From positions 34,011 to 98,010 of IMG/VR virus record IMGVR_UViG_3300047499_000102: DNA of 64,000 nucleotides. One strand, 5' to 3'. The notes beneath the pieces are model-generated. The model had not been told where the DNA came from, ran no database searches, and saw nothing but the letters and a program-made list of their open reading frames with translations. Numbering within the stretch: the stretch's first letter is position 1; each line of letters begins with the position of its first letter. Positions 40,989 through 63,897 of this stretch are shown one piece after another. This DNA is from a virus. The translations under genes and the position numbers were made by a program.

Positions 40989-43820
40989 TCACTGCGCCGC
41001 TGTTTCGCCAGCGGGTGGGGCGAGAAGACCGCGCGCCATCAACTCGCGGATGGTGTCGCGGAACAGTACGGACCTCGCGAAGAAGTCCGAGACATTCATC
41101 CAGCGCACGACACTCGCGGGCTCGGCGGCGTAGGCCGTGCCCGTGTAGCGCGTGACGCGGAAGACGTAGAGCGGTCGGCCGTCCGTGGGCGAGGCTGTGG
41201 TGAAGAGCGGCTCGACCAGAGGCGTGCCATCGGGTTCGCGCTCGCACACGAGCCCCGTTTCTTCATGCAGTTCCCGCGCGACCGTCTCCTCGATGGTCTC
41301 ACCGGGGTCGTTCATGCCGCCGGGGAAGGCTTGCTCGCTCGGCGGCTCTGGACGTGAGACGGTGAGGATCTCACCCGCCTCGTTGAAGACGACGGCGATG
41401 GCGGCCGCTCGCAGGGTGACATTCGGACGCGCCGTCATCTCGATGGATGCCTCGACCGAGCCCTCCAGCGGATGCGGACCGGGGCCCTGGTACGACGCGG
41501 GCGCCTTTGCCCAGGACGGCATGTTGTCCACGCGCCAGCTGGTCGAGTTCTCGTCCGCCCAGCTGCCCTTCGACGTGCCCTTCTTTTGCATGTCGTGCAC
41601 GGCGTCCCAATCGCCCACCTCCGTGGGAACCTGGGCAACGTAGGCGAGTACGGGCCAGCCGAGCTTGCGGTAGCCGAGCACTCGGTGATGCCCGTCAACG
41701 ATCATGAGCTTGGACTTGCCTGGCCGCTTGACGAGTACGACGGGCTTCCACTGCCCCTTGGCCTTGCGGATCTTCTCGACGTACGGGTCGATGTCGTCGT
41801 GGCTCGCCTGCCACTTGTTCGCGTTCGAGAAATCGATGTCATCGATCGACACCTCGACGGGTCCGCCCCACGGGCCGACGTCGTGGATCCAGCGCAGGGC
41901 CTTGGGCGGGTAGTCCTCGAGGAGGTGCTCGTACACCGCCACGGCGACGTCGCGGTCGCCGATGTCCGCGTCGGCCTTCGCACTGAGCTTCAGGAAGAAG
42001 CTCGTATCGTCGGCGTCGTCCTCCGCTGTCCAGGCCCCCCATGTCATCTTCTTCGGCCTGGATGGCTTGCTCTTCTTCGCGGCACCCTTCTTCGCGGCCG
42101 CCTTGCCAAGACCGGTCTTGCCCGCGGTCTTGCCAGGCCCTGTCTTTTTGCCACCCGAGTCGTTCGTGTTGGCCGACTGATTTGACCCAGGCGGGGCGAC
42201 GATAGGCTGGCTCGCCTTGATCTTCGCGACCTCGTGGTCGTTGTCGACCTGCTGTTGCTCGATGTCCTTCTGCTCCTCGCTCTTCAGGTCGGAGTACACC
42301 ATCGTCGGATCAAGGACGTCGCTCAGGAACGAGCCGACTGGCTTCGCGTCGCCCGTCTCGTCGTCCTCCTCCTGCTCGATGATGGGGATGCCCGTCTGGT
42401 CGCTGACCTTCTTCAGGTCGACGCGTGCGCCGATGGCGGTGAGCCCCTTGGCGTTCTCGATCACCGTCTTGGCGTCGGGCTCGCGATCCACGTTCACGAA
42501 CACGTGCGGAAGCACCCGCAGCGCGTCGGGCATGTTCTGCTTCACCAGCCAGTAAACGACGTCCCTGCGGAAGCTCTCGGCGAAGGACGTCGCGTCGTAC
42601 TGTTGGAGATCGACCTCGCTACGTTCTTGAACCTCGGCGGTGCCCGAGCCTCCCAGTCCGCCAGACCCAGCATGGTCGGTGCTGAGCGTACCGCCCAGGG
42701 CGATCTTGCTCATCTCGGAGTTGCAGAAGGCGCTCCATTCGAGGTACGTGACCTTCGACGTACCCGTGCCGTCGTAGCCGATCGCCTTGATGCTGGTACT
42801 GTCGGGCAGCATCGCATACGAGCCGCTCCCGGGTCCGACCTGCGCGAGGGCCTGCGCAAGCACCGCCTCGTCCTCGGGGCTGGCTTCGCGGGGCTTGCCG
42901 TCGTCCTGCGTCGAGTAGGTGCCGAGCAGAAAGCCCGTGGCGAATCGCTCGAGGTACTTCATGCCGCCACGGACGCCAGCGCGCTTGAACAGCGACCAGA
43001 TCGCCATCTGGCGACCGATGCCCTCGCGCGTCGGATAGTCGCCTCTCAGCTGCGGCGCGTACACGATGAACTTCCCCGGCCAGTCCGCGATCCTCGTGCC
43101 AAAGGTCGAGATGTTCGTGGGCGAAGTCCCGAAGGAATCGTTTCCGAGGACCTGCCCCTGGTCCCAAATGTAGAGCGAGTAACTCTGCATGTCGGGGTAG
43201 GCGATTCGCCGCGAGTGGATGAAGTCGAAGCGATCGATGTGCCAGCCGTCGCTGTCCTTCGTCCAGAAGATCTCGGCCGCCGTCGGGCCGTAGTACACGC
43301 CCCACAACAGCGTCGCGACCGTCTGTGTCAGGTTCGGGATCCGGTCGATCTCGGCCTGCACCATCACCGCCGCCTTCTCGGCGAGCTCGCGGTCTGGATG
43401 CTCCTCTGGCAAACGCAGAGGACGCACGTCGATGCGACCGTTCGCGGTGGCGACGATTCGCTTCTCCATGACGGAGAAGCAGTGCCCGTCCATCTCCAGC
43501 AACTCGTCGAGGAGGTCGACCAGCTGCTGGCGGTAGCCGGTGATGGCCAGCCGCATGCAGGATGCGAGGTAGCCCGTGGTGAGCGATACCCCGATGATGA
43601 AGGGGTAGCGGTCGATCAGCGGCCAGGGCGCAACTGCGCGCTGGTCCCTGCGGGTCTCGATGGGCGGCACCGCGGGCGTAGCGCCGGCGGGCGAGGGGAA
43701 GTCCGTTCCCGTGACCTTGCCGGTGCTTCGACGAGGCGGGGGCACGAGGTTCGCCCGCATCGTTACGGCCTTCGGCTTCTTGGCCGCCGCGCGCGCCCTT
43801 GTCTGATGTCGTGCGGCCAT
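40989..43820 (-). CDS. Portal protein (Mu gp29/DUF935-like) fused to ParB-like and NUDIX domains
   Basis: 943 residues from the ATG at 43820. Residues about 60-510 match the DUF935 portal family (VATLLWGVYYGPTAAEIFW, WDQGQVLGNDSFG, KYLERFATGFLLGTYSTQDD, KIALGGTLSTDHAGSGG), the dodecameric head vertex. A Lys/Ala/Gly-rich linker lies near 550-590, then a ParB/sulfiredoxin-type domain with IVDGHHRVLGYRKLG near 706-720. The end is a NUDIX hydrolase whose box (about 828-850) fits G-x5-E-x7-RE-L-x-EE-x-GL. No stop or frameshift separates the parts. No separate gpF-like morphogenesis gene is seen. Confidence 0.85.
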   Translation of the reverse strand: MAARHQTRARAAAKKPKAVTMRANLVPPPRRSTGKVTGTDFPSPAGATPAVPPIETRRDQRAVAPWPLIDRYPFIIGVSLTTGYLASCMRLAITGYRQQLVDLLDELLEMDGHCFSVMEKRIVATANGRIDVRPLRLPEEHPDRELAEKAAVMVQAEIDRIPNLTQTVATLLWGVYYGPTAAEIFWTKDSDGWHIDRFDFIHSRRIAYPDMQSYSLYIWDQGQVLGNDSFGTSPTNISTFGTRIADWPGKFIVYAPQLRGDYPTREGIGRQMAIWSLFKRAGVRGGMKYLERFATGFLLGTYSTQDDGKPREASPEDEAVLAQALAQVGPGSGSYAMLPDSTSIKAIGYDGTGTSKVTYLEWSAFCNSEMSKIALGGTLSTDHAGSGGLGGSGTAEVQERSEVDLQQYDATSFAESFRRDVVYWLVKQNMPDALRVLPHVFVNVDREPDAKTVIENAKGLTAIGARVDLKKVSDQTGIPIIEQEEDDETGDAKPVGSFLSDVLDPTMVYSDLKSEEQKDIEQQQVDNDHEVAKIKASQPIVAPPGSNQSANTNDSGGKKTGPGKTAGKTGLGKAAAKKGAAKKSKPSRPKKMTWGAWTAEDDADDTSFFLKLSAKADADIGDRDVAVAVYEHLLEDYPPKALRWIHDVGPWGGPVEVSIDDIDFSNANKWQASHDDIDPYVEKIRKAKGQWKPVVLVKRPGKSKLMIVDGHHRVLGYRKLGWPVLAYVAQVPTEVGDWDAVHDMQKKGTSKGSWADENSTSWRVDNMPSWAKAPASYQGPGPHPLEGSVEASIEMTARPNVTLRAAAIAVVFNEAGEILTVSRPEPPSEQAFPGGMNDPGETIEETVARELHEETGLVCEREPDGTPLVEPLFTTASPTDGRPLYVFRVTRYTGTAYAAEPASVVRWMNVSDFFARSVLFRDTIRELMARGLLAPPAGETAAQ

Positions 43821-43880
43821 GGGTGTGGTTCCGGATGCCTTCTGCGGTAGGCTGGGCCTCCCAAGGAGGCTCAGAGGGGT

Positions 43881-44312
43881 ATGAAGATTCGAAGCAACCT
43901 CGCCGGCTACATCGAGAAGGTGTTCGGCGTGCGCATTGGGCTGCGAGGTTCGTTCGGCAGGATGCCGGAGAGGAAGCGGTACGAGTTGCGCCCCGACGAG
44001 ATCGCCCAGGTGCAGGCAGCGGTGCGTCGCGCCTCGATGGCTGCGCCCGTGAAGGTCGAGGACGACCGGATCCTCGTCGACGAGGTGCGCGCGCGCCAGT
44101 TCACCGGCCCGATGGGGCCCGAGATCGGCGCCCGGCACGTGGTCTTCATGGGCGATGCGGCGTGGCGCAACATCGCGCGGGCCAGGGGCATCGACGTCGC
44201 GAGCATCCAGCCCGACGAGGAGAAGGGCTTCCCGTATTTCACCGCTGTGCCGCTGCCGGACGACGAGCGCGGATCTGGCGGCATCCTGATCCGTCCAGTG
44301 GGGCCGAAGTGA
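43881..44312 (+). CDS. Plus-strand gene between terminase and portal
   Basis: 143 residues from the ATG at 43881; a GAGGGG and, further up, GGAGG precede it. Basic N-terminus (MKIRSNLAGYIEKVFGVRIG), then a mixed region ending GILIRPVGPK. Protein-like composition and codon use favour this strand; the reverse reading is Ser/Arg/Thr junk. It is opposite to the flanking packaging genes and converges with the terminase gene, 15 bp apart. No family recognised. A moron-type insertion is likely. Confidence 0.6.
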   Translation: MKIRSNLAGYIEKVFGVRIGLRGSFGRMPERKRYELRPDEIAQVQAAVRRASMAAPVKVEDDRILVDEVRARQFTGPMGPEIGARHVVFMGDAAWRNIARARGIDVASIQPDEEKGFPYFTAVPLPDDERGSGGILIRPVGPK

Positions 44313-44327: not shown

Positions 44328-45773
44328 TCAGCCGTAGCCCATCGGCTGGTCCTCGAGTTGGGTGCCGGGGCGGATGCGGCCACCGCCATGTGGCGGCTTC
44401 GGATTGCGGTCGATCATCAGGTCGGTAAAGAGCCAGACCCGCGCGTCCAGAAGGTCCGGCGAGTCCATCCCGAGGTCCGGCTCCCAGACGCAGAGTTGGT
44501 CTTCCAGTTCCCCGAGGGCGCCCACGTGGTGGATGCGATGCTGCTCGTCGAGCGAGGCGATGGGCTCGGCGCGGGTGACCTTGCCCTTCGACGCGGTGAC
44601 CTCGACGATCTTCACCTCGCGCCGAATGGTGCGCAGGTTGGCCGCGACGAGATCGCCACCCTGGTTGCGCTCGATGACGAAGTAATCGGCCTGGACGGCG
44701 TCGAAGACCTCGAAGGCCTTCTTCGCCCACTGCTCCGGGCTCCACTCGCCCTGGATGGCCTCAAGGACGTAGCCGTGCAGGCGCTTGTCCTTCACGCCGG
44801 CCGGCGGGGGGGCCGTGCAGCCCGCGACGATCGCGGTCTTGTTCGGGCGGCGGTCGCTGAGGTTCGCCGCGCGCGCCTTCGTTGTCTGCTGCGACTGCTG
44901 CGAGGTGCTCGTTGCGTGGTCGACGGCGACCGCGGTGCGCGCGATGTCGATGGGCGCTTCGAGGACGCGGTCTTCGTCCAGCTGCTGGCGCTTCCAGAGC
45001 GCGCTTGGCGCGTCGTCGAGGATGTCCGCTTCGAGCTCTTGGCGGCCGAGGCGTGTGCCCTCGTGCGGCTTGATGACCGTCTCGAACCACTGCTCGTTGA
45101 GGTTCGCCACGTTCTCGTAGCTCGACCCCTTGATGACGCGCACGTGGGTCGGCGCTCGCGAGACGAGCCACCTGATGAGCGGGGTAGGGCGCGGCGTCGT
45201 CGAGATGACCCCGCGCAGGTCGTCGCCCACGCGGAAGCTCATCATCAGCTGGTCCCACGCCGCCTGGGCGTAGCGCCACGCTGCCAGCTCGTCTGCCCAG
45301 AAGGTGTCGCAGTTCGGGCCGCGGAACTTGTCGGGCTTGTCGGCCGAGATGAGGCGCGCCCACGAGCCGTTCTTCCACGTGACGCGCGCCTTGGACGGGT
45401 TGTAGATCGGGCGCTCGCCAGGGGGCGCGCAAACGAGGAGCCCGCTGTCGCCCTCGATCATCGTGTCGCGGATGTCTCCCGCGGTCGCGCCAGCGAGGAT
45501 GATGTGCCGACGCTTCTCCATCGCCCGCTGATGGATGAACTCCGCGCCCGTGCGGGTCTTGCCGAAGCCTCGCCCGGCGAGCAGGAGCCAGATGATCCAG
45601 CGCCCCTCGGGAGGAAGCTGCTTCGGTCGCGCCCAGAAGCGCCACGCGTACTTCAGGTGTCGCAGCTGCGCCGGACTGAGGGCGCCGATGATGCGCGCGC
45701 GCTCCTCGTGTGGCAGTCGCGCGAGATCGTGGACGGTCGGGAAGCCGGCCGGGAACGCGAGGGCCGCGCTCAT
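44328..45773 (-). CDS. Terminase large subunit
   Basis: 481 residues. Walker A AGRGFGKT (residues 66-73) and Walker B TFWADE (D161/E162) mark the ATPase motor. TTPRPTPLIRWLVSRAP is the following coupling region, and the C-terminal half (VAVDHATSTS, VIERNQGGDLV, VTASKGKVTRAEPI) holds the RNase-H-like nuclease with the usual acidic positions. It overlaps the small subunit gene by 4 bp. A ~25-residue Gln/Ser/Lys insert after the first nuclease strand is unusual. Confidence 0.9.
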   Translation of the reverse strand: MSAALAFPAGFPTVHDLARLPHEERARIIGALSPAQLRHLKYAWRFWARPKQLPPEGRWIIWLLLAGRGFGKTRTGAEFIHQRAMEKRRHIILAGATAGDIRDTMIEGDSGLLVCAPPGERPIYNPSKARVTWKNGSWARLISADKPDKFRGPNCDTFWADELAAWRYAQAAWDQLMMSFRVGDDLRGVISTTPRPTPLIRWLVSRAPTHVRVIKGSSYENVANLNEQWFETVIKPHEGTRLGRQELEADILDDAPSALWKRQQLDEDRVLEAPIDIARTAVAVDHATSTSQQSQQTTKARAANLSDRRPNKTAIVAGCTAPPPAGVKDKRLHGYVLEAIQGEWSPEQWAKKAFEVFDAVQADYFVIERNQGGDLVAANLRTIRREVKIVEVTASKGKVTRAEPIASLDEQHRIHHVGALGELEDQLCVWEPDLGMDSPDLLDARVWLFTDLMIDRNPKPPHGGGRIRPGTQLEDQPMGYG

Positions 45774-46507
45774 GGCGCCGAACTCGGAGGGGGCGCCCCC
45801 TCCTCGTCGAGGTCATCGTGCTCAAGCGGGACGATCGGCTCGTCGTCGAGATCGTCCGATTCGCCCGGGAGGGGGACGGCGCCGTTGGCGCCCTCGGGCG
45901 CTTCCGTGTCCGTGGCTGCCGTGGGCTCGACGGCTGCAGGTACCGCGACGGGCTGACTCTTCTCGCCGGCCACCGCTGCGATGCGCGCGAGCACGTCGTT
46001 CACGGTAACGATCTCGACCTGGATGCCGCCGCCGTCGTCCCCGCCCATGACCTGATGCTTGGTCGGGGCGAAGGTTCCCTGAATCTTCGCCTGCATCTCG
46101 TGCACGCGATCGAGTTCCGCGCGGGCGTCGTGAATGCGCTTTCGCTCGTGCTCGTGCTGCGGGAGGTTCTTGCGGGTGACGTCGCCGAGCCGCTTGCGGG
46201 CCTGCCGCGCCTCGGCGATCTCGACCCGGGCGTCACGCTCGCGCCGCTCGAGCTTGTCGAGCAGCAGGGCGCGCTTCTCTTCGAGGCCCTCGATGGGCCG
46301 GTCTTCCATCTCCGACTTCCAGAGCTTGTGCGCCTGGGCGCGAGAGATGCCGACCTCAAGGCCAACCTGCGCCCACGAGAGCCCACGCACGCGCGCGGCG
46401 ACGACGAGCTTCGTTCGTTCGCGGGACAGCGCGATGCGCGCGTCTGTCTTGGGGTCGGAGTGCTGCCTGGCCTCACCAGGGGGGCGGTACGGGTCTCCGT
46501 GACTCAT
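45770..46507 (-). CDS. Terminase small subunit-like protein
   Basis: 245 residues. A helix-turn-helix (VRGLSWAQVGLEVGISRAQA, residues 40-60) at the N-terminus would bind packaging-site DNA. A long Arg/Glu coiled coil follows (residues 70-140), then an acidic Pro-rich tail. Position just before the large subunit, with a 4-bp overlap, supports the call. Confidence 0.75.
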   Translation of the reverse strand: MSHGDPYRPPGEARQHSDPKTDARIALSRERTKLVVAARVRGLSWAQVGLEVGISRAQAHKLWKSEMEDRPIEGLEEKRALLLDKLERRERDARVEIAEARQARKRLGDVTRKNLPQHEHERKRIHDARAELDRVHEMQAKIQGTFAPTKHQVMGGDDGGGIQVEIVTVNDVLARIAAVAGEKSQPVAVPAAVEPTAATDTEAPEGANGAVPLPGESDDLDDEPIVPLEHDDLDEEGAPPPSSAP

Positions 46508-46510
46508 GCA

Positions 46511-46762
46511 TCACCGTCCGTCTGGAGACGGGGTAGGTGGGCGCGTAGAGCCGGTGTCGAGCGGCAGAGCGTAGCCGGCAGCGATGGCGTTCGTCTCGGC
46601 GGCGCGGAGCATGTCGAGCAACTCGGGGAGCGGCACCTCCTCCTCGGCGATCACGTGCCCGTCGACGGCGTCGCGCTGCCGGACGGTGACCGTGAGGACC
46701 GTGCCCGCGCTCGCGGGGCCGGTGAGCAACCTGCTTTGACCCATGCCGCTCATGCTGCTCAT
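46511..46762 (-). CDS. Small hypothetical protein
   Basis: 83 residues from the ATG at 46762, which overlaps the stop of the ABC-GNAT gene by 4 bp. A small beta part (GTVLTVTVRQRDAVDGHVIA) and a helix (PLPELLDMLRAAETNAIAAG) can be seen. No family recognised. It links the modification-type operon to the terminase genes. Confidence 0.6.
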   Translation of the reverse strand: MSSMSGMGQSRLLTGPASAGTVLTVTVRQRDAVDGHVIAEEEVPLPELLDMLRAAETNAIAAGYALPLDTGSTRPPTPSPDGR

Positions 46763-47892
46763 GCTGCCGTGCCGAGCACCGCGCGTCCAGTGGCTGCGTC
46801 GAGGGCGGGGCCGACGTACTCGAAGGACGCCGTGAGCCGGTCGAACGCCCGCGTGTCGTGCTTCGCGTAGCCCGTGCGCCCGCGCGAGTCCTTCGCGCCC
46901 ATGCTCGGCTGCCGCGTCATCTTCCACCGCGGCGACCTCGCCCGAGCTCGGATGATGGCCGGGTGCCCCGCCGTGGCGAATGCGCGGAAGCCCTGCCCCT
47001 TCCAGAGCGAGGCCGAGAACTCGATGAGGGCGTTGCCGATGCCGGCGCCCTGGTAGTCGGGCAGGCACACCGTGCGGTGACTGCGCTTGCCGCCGCGGCT
47101 GTCCTTCAGCCGCCCGACGAACGGCAGCCACGCGTCGAAGGCGACGGGCACCCCGCGCCAGAAGGCAACGAAGCACACGGCCGCGTGGGAGCACTCGGCG
47201 CTCAAATAGTGATGACGACCGAAGTGCCGCCATGCCGAGTGATGGACGCGCCGGATTTCGAGGTCGATCGCTGGGCGCCGTTGAAGCGACCTCCATGCGA
47301 ACCGCTGCTCGCTTGGGAGGTACACCCAGTCAGGCTGCAGCCACTCCTCGACGTCGGCGTGGCACGTGACCGCGACGAACTTCTGCCCGCGGCGACGAAC
47401 GGTCTTCGCCAGGGCCGAGCTGCCGATCTGCGCCACGGTGCGATCGACCACCGAGGTGAACTCGTCGACGACGGCGAGATCGGGAAGCTCGGCGAGCAGC
47501 CGCGCGAGGGATACTCGAAACTGCTCCCCGTTGGAGAGCACGTGGAAGGGTCGCACCCATGAGGGCGGCGACGAGAAGCCGACGGAGCAGAGAAGCTCGA
47601 CGACGTCCTTCACCCCCATCGCCTTCGGGAAGGCATCGAGCAGGCTGCGGTCGGCGGGCCAGTCGAACGTGCGAGCCATCGGCTCTTTGAAGAAGTGGCG
47701 GGCGACGGTCGACTTGCCGCAGCCGCTCGGCCCGACGATGAGGCCCACGTTCCAGGGCTTGTCCTCGATGGGCAGGTCGGCGCTCCAGCGCAGCTCCGAG
47801 CGCTCCGCCGGCGGCACGTCGAAGAGCCCCTCGACCTGCGCCACGCGCGGGCTGCGCACGACGTCGGACGAGACGGTGATCTCGGCCTTCAC
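46759..47892 (-). CDS. ABC ATPase fused to GNAT acyltransferase
   Basis: 377 residues from the GTG at 47892. ABC part: Walker A GPSGCGKS (54-61), signature LSNGEQFRVSLA (119-130), Walker B DLAVVDEFTS (D143/E144). No membrane segments, so it is not a transporter subunit. The C-terminal ~170 residues look like a GNAT fold: VCFVAFWRGVPVAFDAWLPF, then the acyl-CoA loop LPDYQGAGIGNALIEF. This ABC-GNAT fusion is a known class (COG2401-type). Mu Mom, a DNA-modifying enzyme, is also GNAT-fold, so DNA modification is a reasonable but unproven idea. Confidence 0.8.
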   Translation of the reverse strand: MKAEITVSSDVVRSPRVAQVEGLFDVPPAERSELRWSADLPIEDKPWNVGLIVGPSGCGKSTVARHFFKEPMARTFDWPADRSLLDAFPKAMGVKDVVELLCSVGFSSPPSWVRPFHVLSNGEQFRVSLARLLAELPDLAVVDEFTSVVDRTVAQIGSSALAKTVRRRGQKFVAVTCHADVEEWLQPDWVYLPSEQRFAWRSLQRRPAIDLEIRRVHHSAWRHFGRHHYLSAECSHAAVCFVAFWRGVPVAFDAWLPFVGRLKDSRGGKRSHRTVCLPDYQGAGIGNALIEFSASLWKGQGFRAFATAGHPAIIRARARSPRWKMTRQPSMGAKDSRGRTGYAKHDTRAFDRLTASFEYVGPALDAATGRAVLGTAA

Positions 47893-48068
47893 GATGGCGC
47901 CCCACTGCGCTTCGGCAGCAGACCGAAGAGGCCGCGCGGCAGCGCCAAGAGCGTCAGCTTCGGCGGCGCCAGAGGCGCGATCGACTTCGCGACCTGCACC
48001 TGCCCGGGCTCCCCTTCGGGGCCCTCGCTGTAGCCGACGAACACGTCGCGGGGCACTCGCGCGCTCAT
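47889..48068 (-). CDS. Small 59-residue protein coupled to ParB and ABC-GNAT genes
   Basis: Begins MSARVPRDVFVGYSEGPEGE, followed by a Leu/Pro/Ala stretch. Its ATG overlaps the ParB stop (ATGA) and its own stop overlaps the GTG of the ABC-GNAT gene (GTGA). Overlaps on both sides make it a real member of this operon. No domain recognised. Confidence 0.6.
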   Translation of the reverse strand: MSARVPRDVFVGYSEGPEGEPGQVQVAKSIAPLAPPKLTLLALPRGLFGLLPKRSGAPS

Positions 48069-48751
48069 CCGACGAGCGCTCTACACTTCAGACCCTCGGC
48101 CATGAGCCGCTCGATCAACTCGGCCTGCTGCCCCTCGGTCGTGCACTCGATGATGACCTGATAGGTCTCCTCGATGTCGGCCTCCTCGTTGGGCGAGGGG
48201 GTGTCGCCGTCCTCGTCGATGCCCAGCGAGGCGTCGATCTCTTCCTCGTCGAGCCCCGTCGCGGCGAGGTCCTCGTCCGCGGCGTCGAGGTCGCGGACGA
48301 TCGCGTCGCGCTTCTCCTCGACCCACTCGCTGTCCTCGCCCACGCGGTTGTCGGCGATGGCGAGACCGTGAGCCTTCAACTCGTCGAGGCTCATGTACCG
48401 CACGGGCAGCTTGTCGAGCCCATGCATCCCGCGCTTCCGAAGAAGCATCGCGGCCTGGATGCGCGTGTCGCCGGCAATCAACTCGCGATTGTCGATGCGC
48501 GCGAGCAGCGGGGCGCCGAATCCGTACGTGCGGATGGACCGCATCGCCTTGCGGACGCTCGCGGTGTTGTCGCGCGGGTTGCCTGCCCAGCGCACAAGCT
48601 CGTCGATGGGCACGAGCACGGCAGCTGCCTCGTAGCCCTCGGGCTGCGGGTGCTGCGGGATGGTGCGGGGGCGTTGCGTGGCGGGCGTCAGCGTCGGAGC
48701 AGCGTCGGCCAACGTCGTATGCGCCTTCGCGGCGGATTGTCTCGCGCCCAT
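48065..48751 (-). CDS. ParB-like N-terminal-domain protein
   Basis: 228 residues from the ATG at 48751; AAGGAT lies 7-8 nt upstream. The domain (residues ~45-130) has the ParB/sulfiredoxin pattern PIDELVRWAGNPRDN, FGAPLLARIDNRELIAGDTR, then a basic helix. The C-terminal half is very acidic (DEEEIDASLGIDEDGDTPSP). There is no HTH after the ParB domain, so it is not a standard chromosome partition protein. Phages carry such proteins near DNA-modification genes. Confidence 0.8.
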   Translation of the reverse strand: MGARQSAAKAHTTLADAAPTLTPATQRPRTIPQHPQPEGYEAAAVLVPIDELVRWAGNPRDNTASVRKAMRSIRTYGFGAPLLARIDNRELIAGDTRIQAAMLLRKRGMHGLDKLPVRYMSLDELKAHGLAIADNRVGEDSEWVEEKRDAIVRDLDAADEDLAATGLDEEEIDASLGIDEDGDTPSPNEEADIEETYQVIIECTTEGQQAELIERLMAEGLKCRALVG

Positions 48752-48756
48752 GGAGT

Positions 48757-48870
48757 CTATCCTTGGCCATCGGGGTACAGGAACGCGTTGAAGACTTCGA
48801 CGACAAGCCCGGCATCGTCCACTACAACGTGCAGGTGGCACCGCCTCAAGGCGGCATCCTCAGAGGGCAC
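48757..48870 (-). CDS. Possible 37-residue protein
   Basis: The GTG at 48870 has GGAG about 6-8 nt upstream. Sequence: 15 mixed residues, then HLHVVVDDAGLVVEVFNAFL. It starts inside the end of the 51-residue gene and stops just before the ParB ribosome site. Too short for a family call. Confidence 0.4.
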   Translation of the reverse strand: MPSEDAALRRCHLHVVVDDAGLVVEVFNAFLYPDGQG

Positions 48871-49015
48871 GGTAGGACTCCAGGCGTCCGCCGTGGGCGA
48901 GGGCCGAGACGGAAGCCGAGCGGTAGCCGGCCTCGTAGAGATCGGACCGGAGGCCCGAGCGGACCTCCACGCGGTGGGCGCCCGCCCACTCACCGTTCCG
49001 GTCGGTGAGGGCCAC
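48860..49015 (-). CDS. Small 51-residue protein
   Basis: Begins at a GTG (49015), 2 bp after the stop of the C5-methyltransferase-like gene (MALTDRNGEWAGAHRVEVRS...). Arg/Ser-rich and soluble. Its position in the operon and codon use support it. No family recognised. Confidence 0.45.
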   Translation of the reverse strand: MALTDRNGEWAGAHRVEVRSGLRSDLYEAGYRSASVSALAHGGRLESYRAL

Positions 49016-49017
49016 GA

Positions 49018-49635
49018 TCAGTGCTCCGCTCGGGCGTTTTGGGTGCGTTGCGAAGCTCGAGCTAGGTCGAGCAGCATGTCGCGGAACGCCACCGGAGTTG
49101 CCATCGCCTCCCGTTTCGAGAGGGTTGGCTTGATGCGGTCGAACCATCCAACCTGCGCGACGCCTGGACGTCGATCCCATCGGAGCTCGGGTGGCCGAAC
49201 GAGCTTCAGGGCGTCGTGCGGTGTTGTGACTGCATAGAGCCACGTCCTCTTGCGGGCCTTGTGCCCATAGGCACTTTGCCACACCTCGGCGACCCACCCG
49301 CCCATCCAAGGCAGCCACATACCCTCTTGCGGAGGGTGCAAGCCGAACCTCTCCCACGCCCTGGAGTGCGCGGGGTGCTCCAGCACGCCTCCCCACTTCC
49401 GCACGGAGGCAAGCGCCGATGCGAAGCAGCCGCCATCGTTCCCCGGCCGGTTGTGCTCCCCACCCCATCGCTTGAAGTTGAGCGCGGCGAAGTTCACCCA
49501 GAGCTGGCACGGCGGATGCGCGACGACCGGCCACGGCCCGGCGTACTTCCGCGCGTCGCGCTTCTCGTCCCACGGGTCCACGTCGGGCAGTCCGAAGTAG
49601 CAGCCGCCGGTCGCGACGAAGAGGGCCGCGATCAT
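49018..49635 (-). CDS. Small protein with C5-cytosine-methyltransferase-like motifs
   Basis: 205 residues. ALFVATGGCYFGL (motif I-like, LF...GG...GL), VAHPPCQLWV (PPCQ, as in the catalytic PCQ of C5-methyltransferases and related enzymes) and [12 protein letters not shown] (motif VIII-like) appear in the order of a C5-methyltransferase, but the chain is only half as long and lacks a target-recognition region. The family is widespread in phages; its enzyme activity is not known to me. The ATG at 49635 overlaps the previous stop. A decayed copy lies at 53396-53696. Confidence 0.7.
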   Translation of the reverse strand: MIAALFVATGGCYFGLPDVDPWDEKRDARKYAGPWPVVAHPPCQLWVNFAALNFKRWGGEHNRPGNDGGCFASALASVRKWGGVLEHPAHSRAWERFGLHPPQEGMWLPWMGGWVAEVWQSAYGHKARKRTWLYAVTTPHDALKLVRPPELRWDRRPGVAQVGWFDRIKPTLSKREAMATPVAFRDMLLDLARASQRTQNARAEH

Positions 49636-53142: not shown

Positions 53143-53399
53143 ACCTCGACGACATCTCCGTCACCGCAGGCGTCGGCCGCGACGTCCTTGAATCCAGGAT
53201 CGCGCTACTGGTCGCGCGCGTCCGTCAACTGCAGGCCGACATCGCCCAGACCGACGCCGTGCTTGCGCGAGTGACGGCGAGCAACGCGCAGCTCGTCGAG
53301 AACATGGGCAGCACGCAGCGGCGCTGTACGGAGCTGCTGGAGCAGACCAGGACGCTGCTGGCGTGTGGGTACCCGATCGGCAGCAAGAGCCAGACGTGA
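53139..53399 (+). CDS. Small coiled-coil early protein
   Basis: 86 residues, ATGA-coupled to the previous gene. Heptad-like helix (RIALLVARVRQLQADIAQTD) for about 50 residues, then CGYPIG near the end. No family recognised. Its TGA overlaps the GTG of the following pseudogene. Confidence 0.65.
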   Translation: MNLDDISVTAGVGRDVLESRIALLVARVRQLQADIAQTDAVLARVTASNAQLVENMGSTQRRCTELLEQTRTLLACGYPIGSKSQT

Positions 53400-53696
53400 A
53401 GACGGTCGCCGCCCTATTCGTCGCCACGGGCGGCTGCTACTTCGGTCTGCCCGGAGTTGACCCGTGGGACGCCATGAGGGACGCGCGGCTGTACGCCGGG
53501 CCTCACCCGGTGGTGGTCGACCCATCGGGCCCGGCTGGAGTCTGACGGCACGACCGAACGAGTGGACCTGCGAGGTCTGGCAGAGCGCCTACGGGCACGC
53601 GGCACGCAAGCGCACGTGGCTGTACTATGTCGGCAACACTCGACCGCCCGAGCTCCGACGGGAGGCATCGGCAACTCCGGTGGCGTTCCGAGACAT
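53396..53696 (+). pseudogene. Decayed second copy of the C5-methyltransferase-like gene
   Basis: From the GTG at 53396 it reads [20 protein letters not shown], nearly the same as the gene at 49018-49635, then stops at 53545. The frame after it still resembles the C-terminal part of that gene ([18 protein letters not shown] ... ATPVAFRDM). The middle, including the PPCQ motif, is deleted. Homology ends at 53696, where a repeat element begins. Opposite strand to the intact copy. Confidence 0.7.
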
Positions 53697-53836
53697 GGGG
53701 CGCAGGCAAGCGCGCAGCGCGAGGCGAACGGCTCGGGAACGGTCGGGAGCTGGTGCCCCTGGTCGCACCGTTGCCCGAGATCGGTCGAGCCAAGAGCACG
53801 CTCGCTCGCGCGGAGGCACTGAACATAGGAATCGGC
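53697..53836. repeat. Partial copy of the 56.7-kb inverted-repeat element
   Basis: About 130 bp (53703-53832) match, in reverse orientation, bases 56746-56876 with only a few differences, ending in CACTGAACATAGGAAT, which is also the inner end of both 66-bp arms at 56.7-57.0 kb. It sits exactly where two convergent genes lose their ends, so it marks an insertion or recombination event. No ORF of convincing character. Confidence 0.7.
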
Positions 53837-58789: not shown

Positions 58790-58888
58790 ATGCTCTACCC
58801 GAACCTCTCCTCCATCCCCCCCTTCATCCGGTCCGTCATCGCGCGGCGCCTCGCTTCCCCCGGCGAGCCGTGCGAGGCCGCCTCGTGA
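58790..58888 (+). CDS. 32-residue leader coupled to the restriction gene
   Basis: ATG at 58790: MLYPNLSSIPPFIRSVIARR..., ending in EAAS; its TGA overlaps the GTG of the Type ISP gene (GTGA). The terminal 16 bases, CGAGGCCGCCTCGTGA, equal those at 57163-57178 and fold into a hairpin covering GAGG. Translation of the leader would open the hairpin and expose the ribosome site. No clear site of its own was seen. Confidence 0.5.
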   Translation: MLYPNLSSIPPFIRSVIARRLASPGEPCEAAS

Positions 58889-61800
58889 GCGCCCTTCACG
58901 ATCTCCTCGACCGTTTCCGCTCCGCCGCGGCGACCCACCGCGAGTCAGGCACGTATTTCGAGGAGCTGACCGTCGCGTACCTGAAGAACGAGCCCGTGTA
59001 CCGCGAGCTCTATCGGAGCGTCGAGCCCTACGCCGTGTGGGCCGAGCGACAGGGGCTCGACAAGCGCGACGCCGGTATCGACCTCGTCGCCGAGACGTTC
59101 ACCAACGAGGCCCACGCGATCCAGTGCAAGCTGTACGCGGCGGACTACGAGGTCAGGAAATCCGACATCGACAGCTTCTTCACCGCATCCGGCAAGAAGC
59201 CGTTCACGCACCGGATCATCTTCGCGACGACGAGCCACTGGTCCGAGCACGCGGAGGATGCTCTCCGCGGTCAGCACATCCCAGTCACCAAGGTCGACCT
59301 CAACGCGCTCGAGATCAGCGCGATCGATTGGTCCAGTTTCACGCCCCGCGAGCCGGTCGTCCTCAAGGCGAAGAAGACGCCTCGCCTTCACCAGCGCGAC
59401 GCGCTTGCCGCTGTTCGCGCGGGCCTCCAGGACGCCGACCGCGGGAAGCTGATCATGGCGTGCGGCACCGGGAAGACCTTCACGAGCCTGAAGATCGCCG
59501 AGGAGCTCGCGGGGGCAGGAAAGCGCGTGCTCTTCCTCGTCCCGAGCCTCGCGCTGCTCTCGCAGACGCTCACCGAGTGGACGCAGGAGAGTGACACGAA
59601 GCTCCAAAGCTTCGCGGTCTGTTCTGACAGCGACGTCGGGAAGAAGCGCAAGAAAGATGACGACACCGTGCAAACGTTCGTGCACGAGCTCCAGTACCCG
59701 GCGACGACGGACGCGAAGCGCCTCGCCGCCGAGATGAAGGCGCGGCACGACGCGAAGCACATGAGCGTCGTCTACGCGACGTACCACTCTATCGAGGTCG
59801 TGCATCGCGCCCAGCAGGAGCAGGGTCTCCCTGCCTTCGATCTCATCGTCTGCGACGAGGCGCACCGGACCACCGGCGCCACGTTCGACGGCGAGGATGA
59901 GAGCCCGTTCGTGCGCGTGCACGACGCCAAGTACATCCGCGCGAAGAAGCGCCTCTACATGACGGCGACGCCGCGCATCTTCGGCAACCTCGCGAAGGCG
60001 AAGGCGGAGCAGGACAGCGTCGAGCTCTGCTCGATGGACAAGGAGGAGCAGTACGGCAAGAACCTCCACGTCCTCACGTTCAACAAGGCGGTCACCGCGG
60101 GGTTGCTCGTCGATTACAAGGTCATCGTCCTCGCCGTCGACGAGGCGCACGTGAGCCGCCGCATCCAGGAGCTGCTGAAGTCGCCCGACAATACGCTCCG
60201 CGTCGACGACGCGTCGAAGATCATCGGCTGCTGGAAGGCGCTCTCCAAGCAGGGCATCGTCGAGGGATTGCACGGCGACGGTACGCCGATGAAACGCGCC
60301 GTCGCCTTCTGCCAGGTCATCGAGCGCCAGCCCAATGCGAGGGTGCACAAGGTCAGCTCGAAGGAGATCGCGGAGATCTTTGAGGCCGTCGTCAAGGCGT
60401 ACCAGGAGAGCGAGCCCACCGAAGACGGTGACACCGCGAAGCGGCTCCGCTGCGAGGCCGCGCACGTGGACGGCAGCATGAACGCGACGCAGAAGGAGGA
60501 GAAGATCGACTGGCTCAAGGCGGAGACGCCCGAGGACACGTGCCGCATCCTCAGCAACGTCCGCTGCCTCTCCGAAGGCGTAGACGTGCCGGCGCTCGAC
60601 GCGGTCCTCTTCTTGACGCCGCGTAACTCGCAGATTGACGTCGTCCAATCCGTCGGGCGCGTGATGCGCAAGATCGACGGCAAGAAGCGCGGGTACGTCG
60701 TGCTTCCGGTCGTCATCCCCGCCGGGAAGGAGCCGCACGAAGCGCTCAACGACAACGAGACCTATCGCGTCGTGTGGCAGGTGCTGAACGCGCTCCGCGC
60801 ACACGACGATCGCTTCGACGCGATGGTCAATAAGCTCTCCCTCATCGGCCAGGACACGACGAAGATGGAGGTCATCGCGATCTCCGACAAGATCGCACGT
60901 CGGCCGCGCTCGCGAGGCGGTTCCGAGGGCACGCGAATCGCCGCGCGGAAGCGAAGCGCCGTAGGCGGAAACACGATCGGCGTCGCCGGTCCGGGTGGGG
61001 ATGCGGACGCACCTGCTGCGCAAGCGACCTTGGAGTTCAACATCGGCGAGATCGAGCGCGCGATCTACGCGAAGCTCGTCGACAAGGTCGGCAACCGCCG
61101 CCACTGGGAGGAGTGGGCGAAGGACATCGCTGAGATCGCCGCCACGCACATCGATCGGATCAAGGGCATCCTCGAGAACAAGAAGAACAGGCGTGAGATC
61201 GATGCGTTCGAGAGCTTCCGCGACGAGCTCCGCGACGACTTAAACCCCAGCATCAGCGACGACGACGTCATCGAAATGCTGGCGCAGCACATGGTGACGA
61301 AGCCCGTCTTCGACGCGCTCTTCGCCGGCCACAGCTTCGCCACCGAGAACTCGATGTCGCGCGCCATGCAGAGCGTCCTCGACGTGCTGCACGAGCACCA
61401 TCTCGAGAAGGAGTCGAGCACCCTGAAGGCGTTCTACGACTCGGTGAAGCTGCGCGCGGAGGGAATCACGAACGCCGAGGGCAAGCAGAAAATCGTGCTC
61501 GAGCTGTACGACAAGTTCTTCAGCCACGCGTTCAAGAAGATGAGCGACCGGCTCGGCATCGTGTACACGCCGGTCGAGATCGTGGACTTCATTTTGAAGA
61601 GCGTCGATCACCTGCTGCGCACGGAGTTCGGGCAGACGCTTGGCGCCAAGGGCGTGCACATCCTCGACCCGTTCACGGGCACTGGCACGTTCATCACGCG
61701 CCTGATGCAGACTGGGCTCCTCTCGAAAGAGGAGCTCGCGCGTAAATACCGGGACGAGATCCACGCGAACGAGATCGTGTTGCTCGCCTATTACATCGCG

Positions 61801-63897
61801 GCGATCAACATCGAGGCCGCGTACCACGACGTCGTGGGGGGCGAGTACGCGCCGTTCGAGGGGATCTGCCTCACGGACACCTTTCAGCTCCATGAGAAGG
61901 ACGACCTCATCTCGCGTGTGCTCGTGGACAACAGCGCGCGCCGGACGCGGCAGAAGAAGCTCGACATTCGCGTCATCGTGTCGAACCCGCCGTACTCGAT
62001 CGGGCAGGAAAGCGAGAACGACAACAACGCGAACGTCGAGTACGAACACCTCGACGGACGCATCGCAGAGACTTACGCCGCGCGCACCAGCGCGAAGCTC
62101 GCGAAGGGACTCTACGACAGCTACGTGCGCGCCATCCGATGGGCGAGCGACCGTATCGGCGACCGCGGGGTCATCGGCTTCGTCACGAACGCAAACTTCA
62201 TCGAGGCGAACACGACGGACGGCCTCCGCAAGTGCCTCGCCGAAGAGTTCAGCGACCTCTACATGTTTCACCTGCGAGGCAACCAACGCACCGCGGGCGA
62301 GCGATCGAGGAAGGAGGGGGGCAAAATCTTCGGCAGCGGAAGCCGTGCGCCGGTGGCGATCTCGTTGCTGGTTAAGAACCCCAACGCGGCGCGGCGGGGC
62401 CGAATATTTTTCCGCGACGTCGGCGACTACCTTACGCGCGAGCAGAAACTCGCGACGGTGAAGGAGTTCGGGAGCGTGGAGGGGGTCACCAAAGGGAATG
62501 GCTGGACGGCCATCACGCCCGACGCGCATGGCGACTGGTTGAAGCAGCGGGACGAGAGTTTCGGTCGCCACATCGTCCTGGGCGACAGGAGCGGGGCGGA
62601 GCCCGCCGTGTTCGACGTCTTCTCCCTGGGCGTGAACACGAACCGCGACGCCTGGGTGCGCAGCCCCTCAGAGACCGGCCTTTCTGCGAATGTCGCCAAG
62701 ATGATCCGGTTCTACGAGGCTGAACGCGCGCGGTTCAACGCTCAACACCGAGCGCTGGATAAGAAGGCCCGCGCTGCGCGCGTCGATGACTTCGTGGACA
62801 CGGATCCCACGAGGATCAGCTGGACCGTGAACCTGAAGAGCGATCTCGCGCGGGACACGAAGCTTGCGTTCGATGCAACGCGCATCGTGCCGAGCCTCTA
62901 TCGACCGTTTTCGAAGGAATGGTTGTACTTCGATCGAAAGCTGAACGAGCGCGTGCTCCAGATGCCCCGCTTGTTTCCGTCGTCGAAGACGACGAACAGG
63001 GTCATCGGCGTGTCCGCTGGCGAGTCGCGGTCGGGATTTTCGGCCCTAATGGCCGACGTCGTTCCCAGCCTTCACGCCGCGGACATGGTTGGCTCGCAGT
63101 TTTTCCCGCTCTACGTGTACGAGGCGGACGACGATGGATCCGGCGCCGACCTGTTCGCGTCAACGAAGAGCAAGAAGAGTGCTGCTCCCACGCGCCGTGA
63201 CGCGATCACCGACGCTGGCCTGGCGCACTTCCGGGACGCGTACCCCGGCGAGAGGATCACGAAGGAGCACGTCTTCTACTACGTCTACGGCGTCCTCCAC
63301 TCGACCCAGTACCGCGAGCGCTACGCCGACAATCTCGGCAAGGAGCTCCCACGCATCCCGTGCATGAAGACGGCGGTGGATTTCTGGGCGTTCAGCAAGG
63401 CGGGGCGCGCGCTGGCGGATCTGCACGTCGGCTATGAGCGCGTGCCCGAGTATCAGGGCGTCACGATCGAGGGACCGAAGAAGCCGACGGGAGCGCAGTA
63501 CCGCGTCGAGAAAATGGCGTTCGGGAAGGGCAAGGACAAGACGATCATTCACTACAACGAGATCATCACCGTCCGCGAGATCCCGCTCGAGGCCTACGAG
63601 TACGTTGTGAACGGCAAGTCGGCGATCGAATGGGTGCGGGAGCGGCAGTGCGTCTTGACCGAGGACCCGAGCGGCATCGTGAAGGATGCGAACGCTTGGG
63701 CGACGGAGACCGTCGGCGACCCGCGCTACCCGCTCTCGCTGTTACTCCGCGTGATCACCGTGAGCCTCGAGACGATGAAGATCGTGCGCGGCCTTCCGCC
63801 GTTGAGCGAGGCCACGGTGTATCCGAAGACGGAGGGGCGCGAGTACCTCATGGTGGCAGAGCCGGTGGCGCCGCTCGGTAGGACTAAAGGCACATAG
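58885..63897 (+). CDS. Type ISP restriction-modification enzyme (nuclease-helicase-methyltransferase)
   Basis: 1670 residues from the GTG at 58885; a GTG at 58870 is less likely. Order matches single-chain Type ISP enzymes (LlaGI/LlaBIII type, ~1570 residues). Mrr-like nuclease: AGIDLVAE and IQCKLY (D66, Q80-x-K82). SF2 translocase: Walker A ACGTGKT near 192, DEAH near 323, MTATPR, and QSVGRVMRK near 588. N6-adenine methyltransferase: DPFTGTGTF near 927 and NPPYS near 1034. The last ~350 residues are the target-recognition region. All catalytic motifs are intact. It would cleave unmodified foreign DNA and protect its own site by methylation. Confidence 0.92.
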   Translation: MSALHDLLDRFRSAAATHRESGTYFEELTVAYLKNEPVYRELYRSVEPYAVWAERQGLDKRDAGIDLVAETFTNEAHAIQCKLYAADYEVRKSDIDSFFTASGKKPFTHRIIFATTSHWSEHAEDALRGQHIPVTKVDLNALEISAIDWSSFTPREPVVLKAKKTPRLHQRDALAAVRAGLQDADRGKLIMACGTGKTFTSLKIAEELAGAGKRVLFLVPSLALLSQTLTEWTQESDTKLQSFAVCSDSDVGKKRKKDDDTVQTFVHELQYPATTDAKRLAAEMKARHDAKHMSVVYATYHSIEVVHRAQQEQGLPAFDLIVCDEAHRTTGATFDGEDESPFVRVHDAKYIRAKKRLYMTATPRIFGNLAKAKAEQDSVELCSMDKEEQYGKNLHVLTFNKAVTAGLLVDYKVIVLAVDEAHVSRRIQELLKSPDNTLRVDDASKIIGCWKALSKQGIVEGLHGDGTPMKRAVAFCQVIERQPNARVHKVSSKEIAEIFEAVVKAYQESEPTEDGDTAKRLRCEAAHVDGSMNATQKEEKIDWLKAETPEDTCRILSNVRCLSEGVDVPALDAVLFLTPRNSQIDVVQSVGRVMRKIDGKKRGYVVLPVVIPAGKEPHEALNDNETYRVVWQVLNALRAHDDRFDAMVNKLSLIGQDTTKMEVIAISDKIARRPRSRGGSEGTRIAARKRSAVGGNTIGVAGPGGDADAPAAQATLEFNIGEIERAIYAKLVDKVGNRRHWEEWAKDIAEIAATHIDRIKGILENKKNRREIDAFESFRDELRDDLNPSISDDDVIEMLAQHMVTKPVFDALFAGHSFATENSMSRAMQSVLDVLHEHHLEKESSTLKAFYDSVKLRAEGITNAEGKQKIVLELYDKFFSHAFKKMSDRLGIVYTPVEIVDFILKSVDHLLRTEFGQTLGAKGVHILDPFTGTGTFITRLMQTGLLSKEELARKYRDEIHANEIVLLAYYIAAINIEAAYHDVVGGEYAPFEGICLTDTFQLHEKDDLISRVLVDNSARRTRQKKLDIRVIVSNPPYSIGQESENDNNANVEYEHLDGRIAETYAARTSAKLAKGLYDSYVRAIRWASDRIGDRGVIGFVTNANFIEANTTDGLRKCLAEEFSDLYMFHLRGNQRTAGERSRKEGGKIFGSGSRAPVAISLLVKNPNAARRGRIFFRDVGDYLTREQKLATVKEFGSVEGVTKGNGWTAITPDAHGDWLKQRDESFGRHIVLGDRSGAEPAVFDVFSLGVNTNRDAWVRSPSETGLSANVAKMIRFYEAERARFNAQHRALDKKARAARVDDFVDTDPTRISWTVNLKSDLARDTKLAFDATRIVPSLYRPFSKEWLYFDRKLNERVLQMPRLFPSSKTTNRVIGVSAGESRSGFSALMADVVPSLHAADMVGSQFFPLYVYEADDDGSGADLFASTKSKKSAAPTRRDAITDAGLAHFRDAYPGERITKEHVFYYVYGVLHSTQYRERYADNLGKELPRIPCMKTAVDFWAFSKAGRALADLHVGYERVPEYQGVTIEGPKKPTGAQYRVEKMAFGKGKDKTIIHYNEIITVREIPLEAYEYVVNGKSAIEWVRERQCVLTEDPSGIVKDANAWATETVGDPRYPLSLLLRVITVSLETMKIVRGLPPLSEATVYPKTEGREYLMVAEPVAPLGRTKGT

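Follow-up and report, generated by a model that had tools for sequence, protein, structure and literature searches.

A ParB-linked ABC ATPase-GNAT fusion encoded upstream of viral terminase genes is a candidate DNA-modification module

Mu Mom is an adenine methylcarbamoylase with a GNAT fold, and a Mom structure is available in the Protein Data Bank (PDB; 8bv8). For a second group, which combines a GNAT domain and an ABC ATPase, a prediction dating from 2013 assigns an uncharacterized acyl modification of a DNA base; it is restated in a passage of a later paper with QAX98348.1 as the cited example (Iyer et al. 2021, PMC7824862). In the Dpd 7-deazaguanine system, in which the base-modifying enzyme is DpdA, a ParB-like ATPase, DpdB, helps to insert the modified base (PMC12839542). 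Here we describe a window of 64,000 nucleotides, corresponding to bases 34011-98010 of the 98,010-base virus record IMGVR_UViG_3300047499_000102, in which a minus-strand operon at 46759-49635 (window coordinates) encodes an ABC ATPase fused to a GNAT acyltransferase (hereafter ABC-GNAT), a ParB-like protein and a C5-methyltransferase-like protein. The first two of these genes, which are the main subject of this report, are as follows:

46759-47892, minus strand: ABC-ATPase-GNAT fusion of 377 amino acids, the core enzyme (phrog_11143, ABC motifs, GNAT residues)
48065-48751, minus strand: ParB-like partner of 228 amino acids from the ATG at 48751 (phrog_620); the reading frame is open from a GTG at 48841

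QAX98348.1 is a protein of Aeromonas phage AsFcp_2, and the window ABC-GNAT is 37.9% identical to it over 96% of its length. As the example cited by Iyer et al. is thus the AsFcp_2 match of the window protein, the latter is, on the strength of this similarity, a member of the same predicted DNA-acylating ABC-GNAT family, with the same fusion. The proposal in the first-pass annotation of this DNA that such a modification pathway could be undescribed is therefore not upheld. Nothing beyond the Iyer prediction turned up in the literature on the ABC-GNAT/ParB gene set. The linkages reported below are absent from the account of the family in PMC7824862, where there is no mention of ParB, terminase, aspartate decarboxylase, coenzyme A (CoA)-transferase or formyltransferase; the linkages given in the 2013 paper itself lie outside this comparison. 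Among the isolates with the module are Lactococcus phage P335, Leptospira biflexa phage LE4 and the Gordonia/Rhodococcus phage Jace. The paper on the LE3/LE4 phages makes no mention of DNA modification or of a restriction test.

The fusion of an ABC ATPase to a GNAT domain, as noted in the first-pass annotation, is evident from several searches. Its full length is covered by a match to phrog_11143, a family of unknown function (residues 4-364, 4e-104), and Pfam ABC_tran matches at 5e-9, with the GNAT part represented by a sub-threshold match to Acetyltransf_7 (1.4e-3). The window protein has the Walker A motif, the S and G of the signature motif, the D-E of Walker B and the His of the H-loop, all of which are invariant across 190 relatives. 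In the GNAT half F224, Y229, R273, P278, G282 and W323 are invariant in the 190 ABC-GNATs, and H228 is found in 189 of them. The AlphaFold model consists of two domains and has good confidence (predicted local distance difference test score, pLDDT, 86), and a PDB fold search with the whole protein returned ABC ATPases, the second half matching the GNAT 1y9k. Matches to the family number at least 594 stretches in IMG/VR and 408 in contigs of bacterial genomes, and the GNAT is retained throughout; in P335 and Vinitor-27 it is split off but kept. ABC-GNAT genes are unusually frequent in genome contigs of Planctomycetota (Gemmataceae, Gimesia, Zavarzinella) and in Nonomuraea (loci L155-L234). A role in anti-phage defence was considered and set aside, PADLOC returning only resemblances to ABC motifs (mad3, mad8) and to a ParB-methyltransferase.

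The ABC-GNAT and the ParB-like protein form a real module: of 182 related loci with room upstream of the ABC-GNAT gene, 177 contain both (75 in bacterial genome contigs, 96 in IMG/VR contigs and 11 in phage records, some IMG/VR loci overlapping between scans, make up the 182). In the 177 loci the ParB homologue is on the same strand, and in 158 it is directly adjacent; as a background, this ParB profile finds a match in 2 of 80 loci centred on relatives of the C5-methyltransferase-like gene. The window ParB-like protein matches phrog_620 at 2.5e-29, confirming its initial assignment, and is similar to the ParB region found in ParB-methyltransferases of phages (phrog_498, 1e-24). Alone it falls short of Pfam ParB_N (PF02195), a model that the ParBs beside ABC-GNAT in relatives do match. 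The partnership is reminiscent of the Dpd system, where a base-modifying enzyme is likewise helped by a ParB-like protein, but Dpd employs a TGT-fold enzyme and other chemistry, and has no ABC-GNAT (PMC12839542).

The same type of ParB partner accompanies one subfamily of Mom enzymes. A scan was made with a single Mom-family acyltransferase from Microbacterium phage Pickles13, which matches Pfam Mom at 1e-46, and a ParB was detected in all 72 of the resulting loci with room for it (among L425-L504), 71 of the ParBs being adjacent and directly upstream, by a profile trained on the neighbours of ABC-GNAT. ABC-GNAT itself occurs in none of these 72 loci, and the ParB profile found nothing in 32 Mu-type Mom loci; Mu carries Com rather than ParB, and Mu Mom differs further in lacking an ABC domain. 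ParB-like proteins thus emerge as recurrent partners of DNA-modifying acyltransferases. The acyltransferases also share features. Profile alignment of Mom with the GNAT half of ABC-GNAT is centred on an HY pair and scored 35.2, whereas 200 column shuffles gave no score above 20.9. Eight Mom proteins all have this HY and an R, and their counterparts in ABC-GNAT are H228, Y229 and R273, the match of R273 to the Mom R lying outside the scored local alignment and having been placed by eye. Residues of this HY/R type are found at the Mom active site.

The module also lies close to packaging genes. Of 119 loci, at least 59 have the start of the large terminase subunit (TerL) within 2.5 kb downstream of ABC-GNAT, compared with 4 of 94 upstream. 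These counts are a lower bound, as the Pfam and cluster profiles that were used cover only part of the terminase types; an initial test by single-sequence search had found nothing outside the seed phages and was replaced by these profiles. Downstream of the C5-methyltransferase-like gene a TerL start lies within this distance in 5 of 58 loci. The terminases linked to ABC-GNAT are of unrelated types (Terminase_6, Terminase_3, HK97-type and GpA). This arrangement fits a late role for the module, on DNA about to be packaged, although shared late transcription alone could explain the linkage.

Taken together, the best-supported interpretation, and one we consider probable, is that ParB and ABC-GNAT constitute a two-component phage DNA-modification module. 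We infer that DNA would be the target and an acyl-CoA the donor. The ParB, with its DNA-binding, nucleoside triphosphate-binding fold, would bring the ABC-GNAT to DNA, where the ABC-ATPase domain may spend ATP to load, to reshape or distort the DNA or to open the site, and the GNAT domain would then use acyl-CoA to acylate an exocyclic amine of a base. By analogy with Mu Mom, adenine is the obvious candidate. Because the genes directly precede the terminase, the modification would be made late, on DNA awaiting packaging, and the virion DNA may thereby be protected from restriction in the next host. If this proposal is correct, hundreds of phages and prophages carry a DNA acylation system with a Mom-like reaction that is powered by an ABC ATPase.

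Accessory genes in relatives point to the possible donor. In Gordonia phage Jace and its relatives the gene order is ParB, ABC-GNAT, aspartate decarboxylase and a half-size family III CoA-transferase. This operon is found at L104:4456-7221, in L279 and in L318-L343, and a second ABC-GNAT follows in L335-L340 and L343. An IMG/VR scan for the half-size CoA-transferase, seeded from ABC-GNAT loci, yielded 27 loci, of which 26 contain ABC-GNAT, 24 ParB and 23 aspartate decarboxylase; the one locus without ABC-GNAT begins at a contig edge. In a second subset, from a scan seeded in the same way, a formyltransferase gene overlaps the end of ABC-GNAT (L314:5113-5730, L112:1814-2464, L317:5131-5604 and scan loci L345-L424), and ABC-GNAT is present in 78 of 80 loci (77 at E below 1e-50), the two exceptions beginning near a contig or locus edge. 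On one viral contig an AtoD-like CoA-transferase (PF01144) overlaps the end of ABC-GNAT (L242:4708-5274).

This near exclusivity to ABC-GNAT suggests that the accessory genes provide dedicated acyl donors in the relatives, such as beta-alanyl-CoA. As the aspartate decarboxylase of the Jace-type operon retains its Gly-Ser processing site, beta-alanine is likely to be its product, and beta-alanyl-CoA is likely to be that of the decarboxylase and CoA-transferase acting together; alternatively, the beta-alanine may be made for CoA synthesis. The record containing the window, which may be a fragment, returned no match for Asp_decarbox, CoA_transf_3, Formyl_trans_N or CoA_trans, and because no donor-making gene was found there, the window phage is likely to draw on an acyl-CoA of its host, in place of the dedicated supply proposed for the relatives. 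A search of the same record for Mom, made without a positive control, also found no match. A more ambitious possibility, which we offer tentatively and regard as doubtful, is that ParB-ABC-GNAT represents a broad class of ATP-dependent DNA acylation systems in which interchangeable donor genes determine the acyl group, decarboxylase plus CoA-transferase leading through beta-alanyl-CoA to a beta-alanyl-type base, and formyltransferase adding or trimming a group. To our knowledge no beta-alanyl-type DNA base has been described. The module is of real interest because the decarboxylase and CoA-transferase operon replaces a vague expectation of some acyl group with a specific beta-alanyl-type prediction that can be tested in existing isolates, such as the Gordonia/Rhodococcus phage Jace.

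In the window the module is embedded in a longer series of genes. On the minus strand, the order of transcription is the C5-methyltransferase-like gene, two tiny open reading frames (ORFs), the ParB-like gene, a gene for a 59-residue protein, ABC-GNAT, a gene for an 83-residue protein, a TerS-like gene and TerL, with start and stop codons overlapping at the ParB/59-residue, 59-residue/ABC-GNAT, ABC-GNAT/83-residue and TerS-like/TerL junctions. The remaining genes of this series are:

44328-45773, minus strand: terminase large subunit, 481 amino acids (Terminase_6N 6e-21, Terminase_6C 1.6e-4)
45770-46507, minus strand: TerS-like helix-turn-helix protein, 245 amino acids, a weak assignment (sub-threshold helix-turn-helix match, phrog_645/phrog_686, position directly before TerL)
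46511-46762, minus strand: 83-residue protein, overlapping the stop codon of ABC-GNAT
47889-48068, minus strand: 59-residue protein between ParB and ABC-GNAT, with a 4-nucleotide overlap with each
48860-49015, minus strand: small ORF of 51 residues between the C5-methyltransferase-like gene and ParB
49018-49635, minus strand: C5-methyltransferase-like protein, 205 amino acids (phrog_12600; Cys43 in PPC, Glu86 in EHP)

The layout agrees with the first-pass annotation, which had described an operon directly before the terminase that includes several very small proteins and a 205-residue protein with C5-methyltransferase-like motifs. Neither the 59- nor the 83-residue protein matched a family in Pfam or PHROG searches, and in most relatives ParB directly meets ABC-GNAT with no intervening 59-residue gene.

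It could be argued, as the first-pass annotation did, that the C5-methyltransferase-like gene belongs to the same modification set. In such a three-gene pathway the C5-like protein would first modify a pyrimidine, and ABC-GNAT would then acylate that base. The genes are neighbours in one tight operon, and the C5-like protein, which matches phrog_12600 at 1e-59, retains catalytic-type residues, a P-C (C43) and an E-H-P (E86) being invariant in 29 relatives. Its PPC and E-H-P lie at the positions of the catalytic Cys and Glu of M.HaeIII and the DNMTs, and the 50 PDB fold matches listed for its AlphaFold model (pLDDT 91.5) are all C5-methyltransferases, albeit weak (best E 3e-3, TM-score at most 0.44). 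The protein is, however, far smaller than M.HaeIII and the DNMTs and lacks a recognizable motif I or target-recognition domain; the canonical FxGxG of motif I, which binds S-adenosylmethionine, was not seen in the alignment of the family, and no Pfam model, including DNA_methylase, matched at E<=1. The co-occurrence check proposed for the three genes, when run in phage and bacterial loci, linked ParB to ABC-GNAT but left the C5-like gene unlinked, its family being present in 0 of 182 ABC-GNAT loci and ABC-GNAT in 0 of 80 loci of C5-like relatives. Other genes on the sense strand near the C5-like gene each recur in 6 of these 80 loci at most, and ParB relatives were found in only 3 of the 80. 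In one isolate, Pseudomonas phage Persinger, a different ParB adjoins the C5-like gene. In addition, a second C5-like copy, internally deleted and frame-broken, lies on the opposite strand at 53396-53700 (plus), about 4 kb from the intact gene. We therefore judge the C5-like gene to be a stand-alone neighbour, or orphan, outside the ABC-GNAT module, and the three-gene pathway, which was rejected for want of co-occurrence, to be very improbable.

It should be emphasized that several observations weigh against the proposal that ParB and ABC-GNAT modify DNA. The best GNAT fold match is an ordinary acetyltransferase, 1y9k, and Mom 8bv8 is absent among the 50 PDB matches listed for the whole protein, a search dominated by ABC domains. 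Mom sequences lack the acyl-CoA loop seen here (QGxGIG), which is that of ordinary GNATs, and thus the chemistry may differ from that of Mom. The Pfam Mom model (PF25680), which matches both Mu Mom and the Pickles13 protein, has no match to ABC-GNAT at E<=1; filing the protein as a Mom was consequently rejected, and the comparison with Mu Mom made in the first-pass annotation holds as remote similarity around the HY pair but not as family membership. No ParB was detected beside ABC-GNAT in Komp_PAO1_1, Porphyromonas phage007a or Aeromonas AsFcp_2, and, given how the accessory scans were seeded, the exclusivity holds for those subfamilies of CoA-transferase and formyltransferase and not for the enzyme classes. 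The main rival is that the GNAT acylates a protein, such as host RNA polymerase, a ribosomal protein, terminase or capsid, with ParB and the ABC domain regulating or localizing it. Protein-modifying phage GNATs are known (phiKMV Rac, RimI-like GNATs), the top-scoring models for the split GNATs of the family are those of ordinary acetyltransferases, rimI among them, and the terminase linkage could make terminase the target. The linked terminases are, however, of unrelated types, which argues against a single protein substrate, while the near-obligate ParB partner and the HY and R are features held in common with Mom enzymes; we thus view protein acylation as unlikely, if worth keeping in mind. 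Similarly, ParB and an ABC ATPase resemble ParB-SMC in composition and, placed before the terminase, might act as a DNA-loading, condensation or partition machine for packaging that the GNAT regulates. This is quite improbable, as the ABC domain, at about 200 residues, is too small to contain the coiled coils of SMC, the GNAT is never lost from the family even where it is split off, and the accessory genes concern acyl-donor chemistry. It is highly improbable that the module is a nucleotide-pool or signalling enzyme acylating a small molecule or nucleotide rather than polymeric DNA; GNATs are promiscuous and the accessory genes encode small-molecule enzymes, but DNA is indicated by the ParB partner and by the parallel with Mom, and the recurrent neighbours of ABC-GNAT included no genes of nucleotide-pool metabolism.

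Two further features of the window lie outside the operon. At 40989-44138 (minus strand) an ORF encoding a Mu-type portal protein ends in a NUDIX domain, an unusual fusion. At 58870-63897 (plus strand), at the end of the record, is a gene for a 1675-residue Type ISP restriction-modification enzyme with Mrr_cat_2, ResIII, ISP_coupler, N6_Mtase and Type_ISP_C domains, which may be phage cargo or flanking host DNA.

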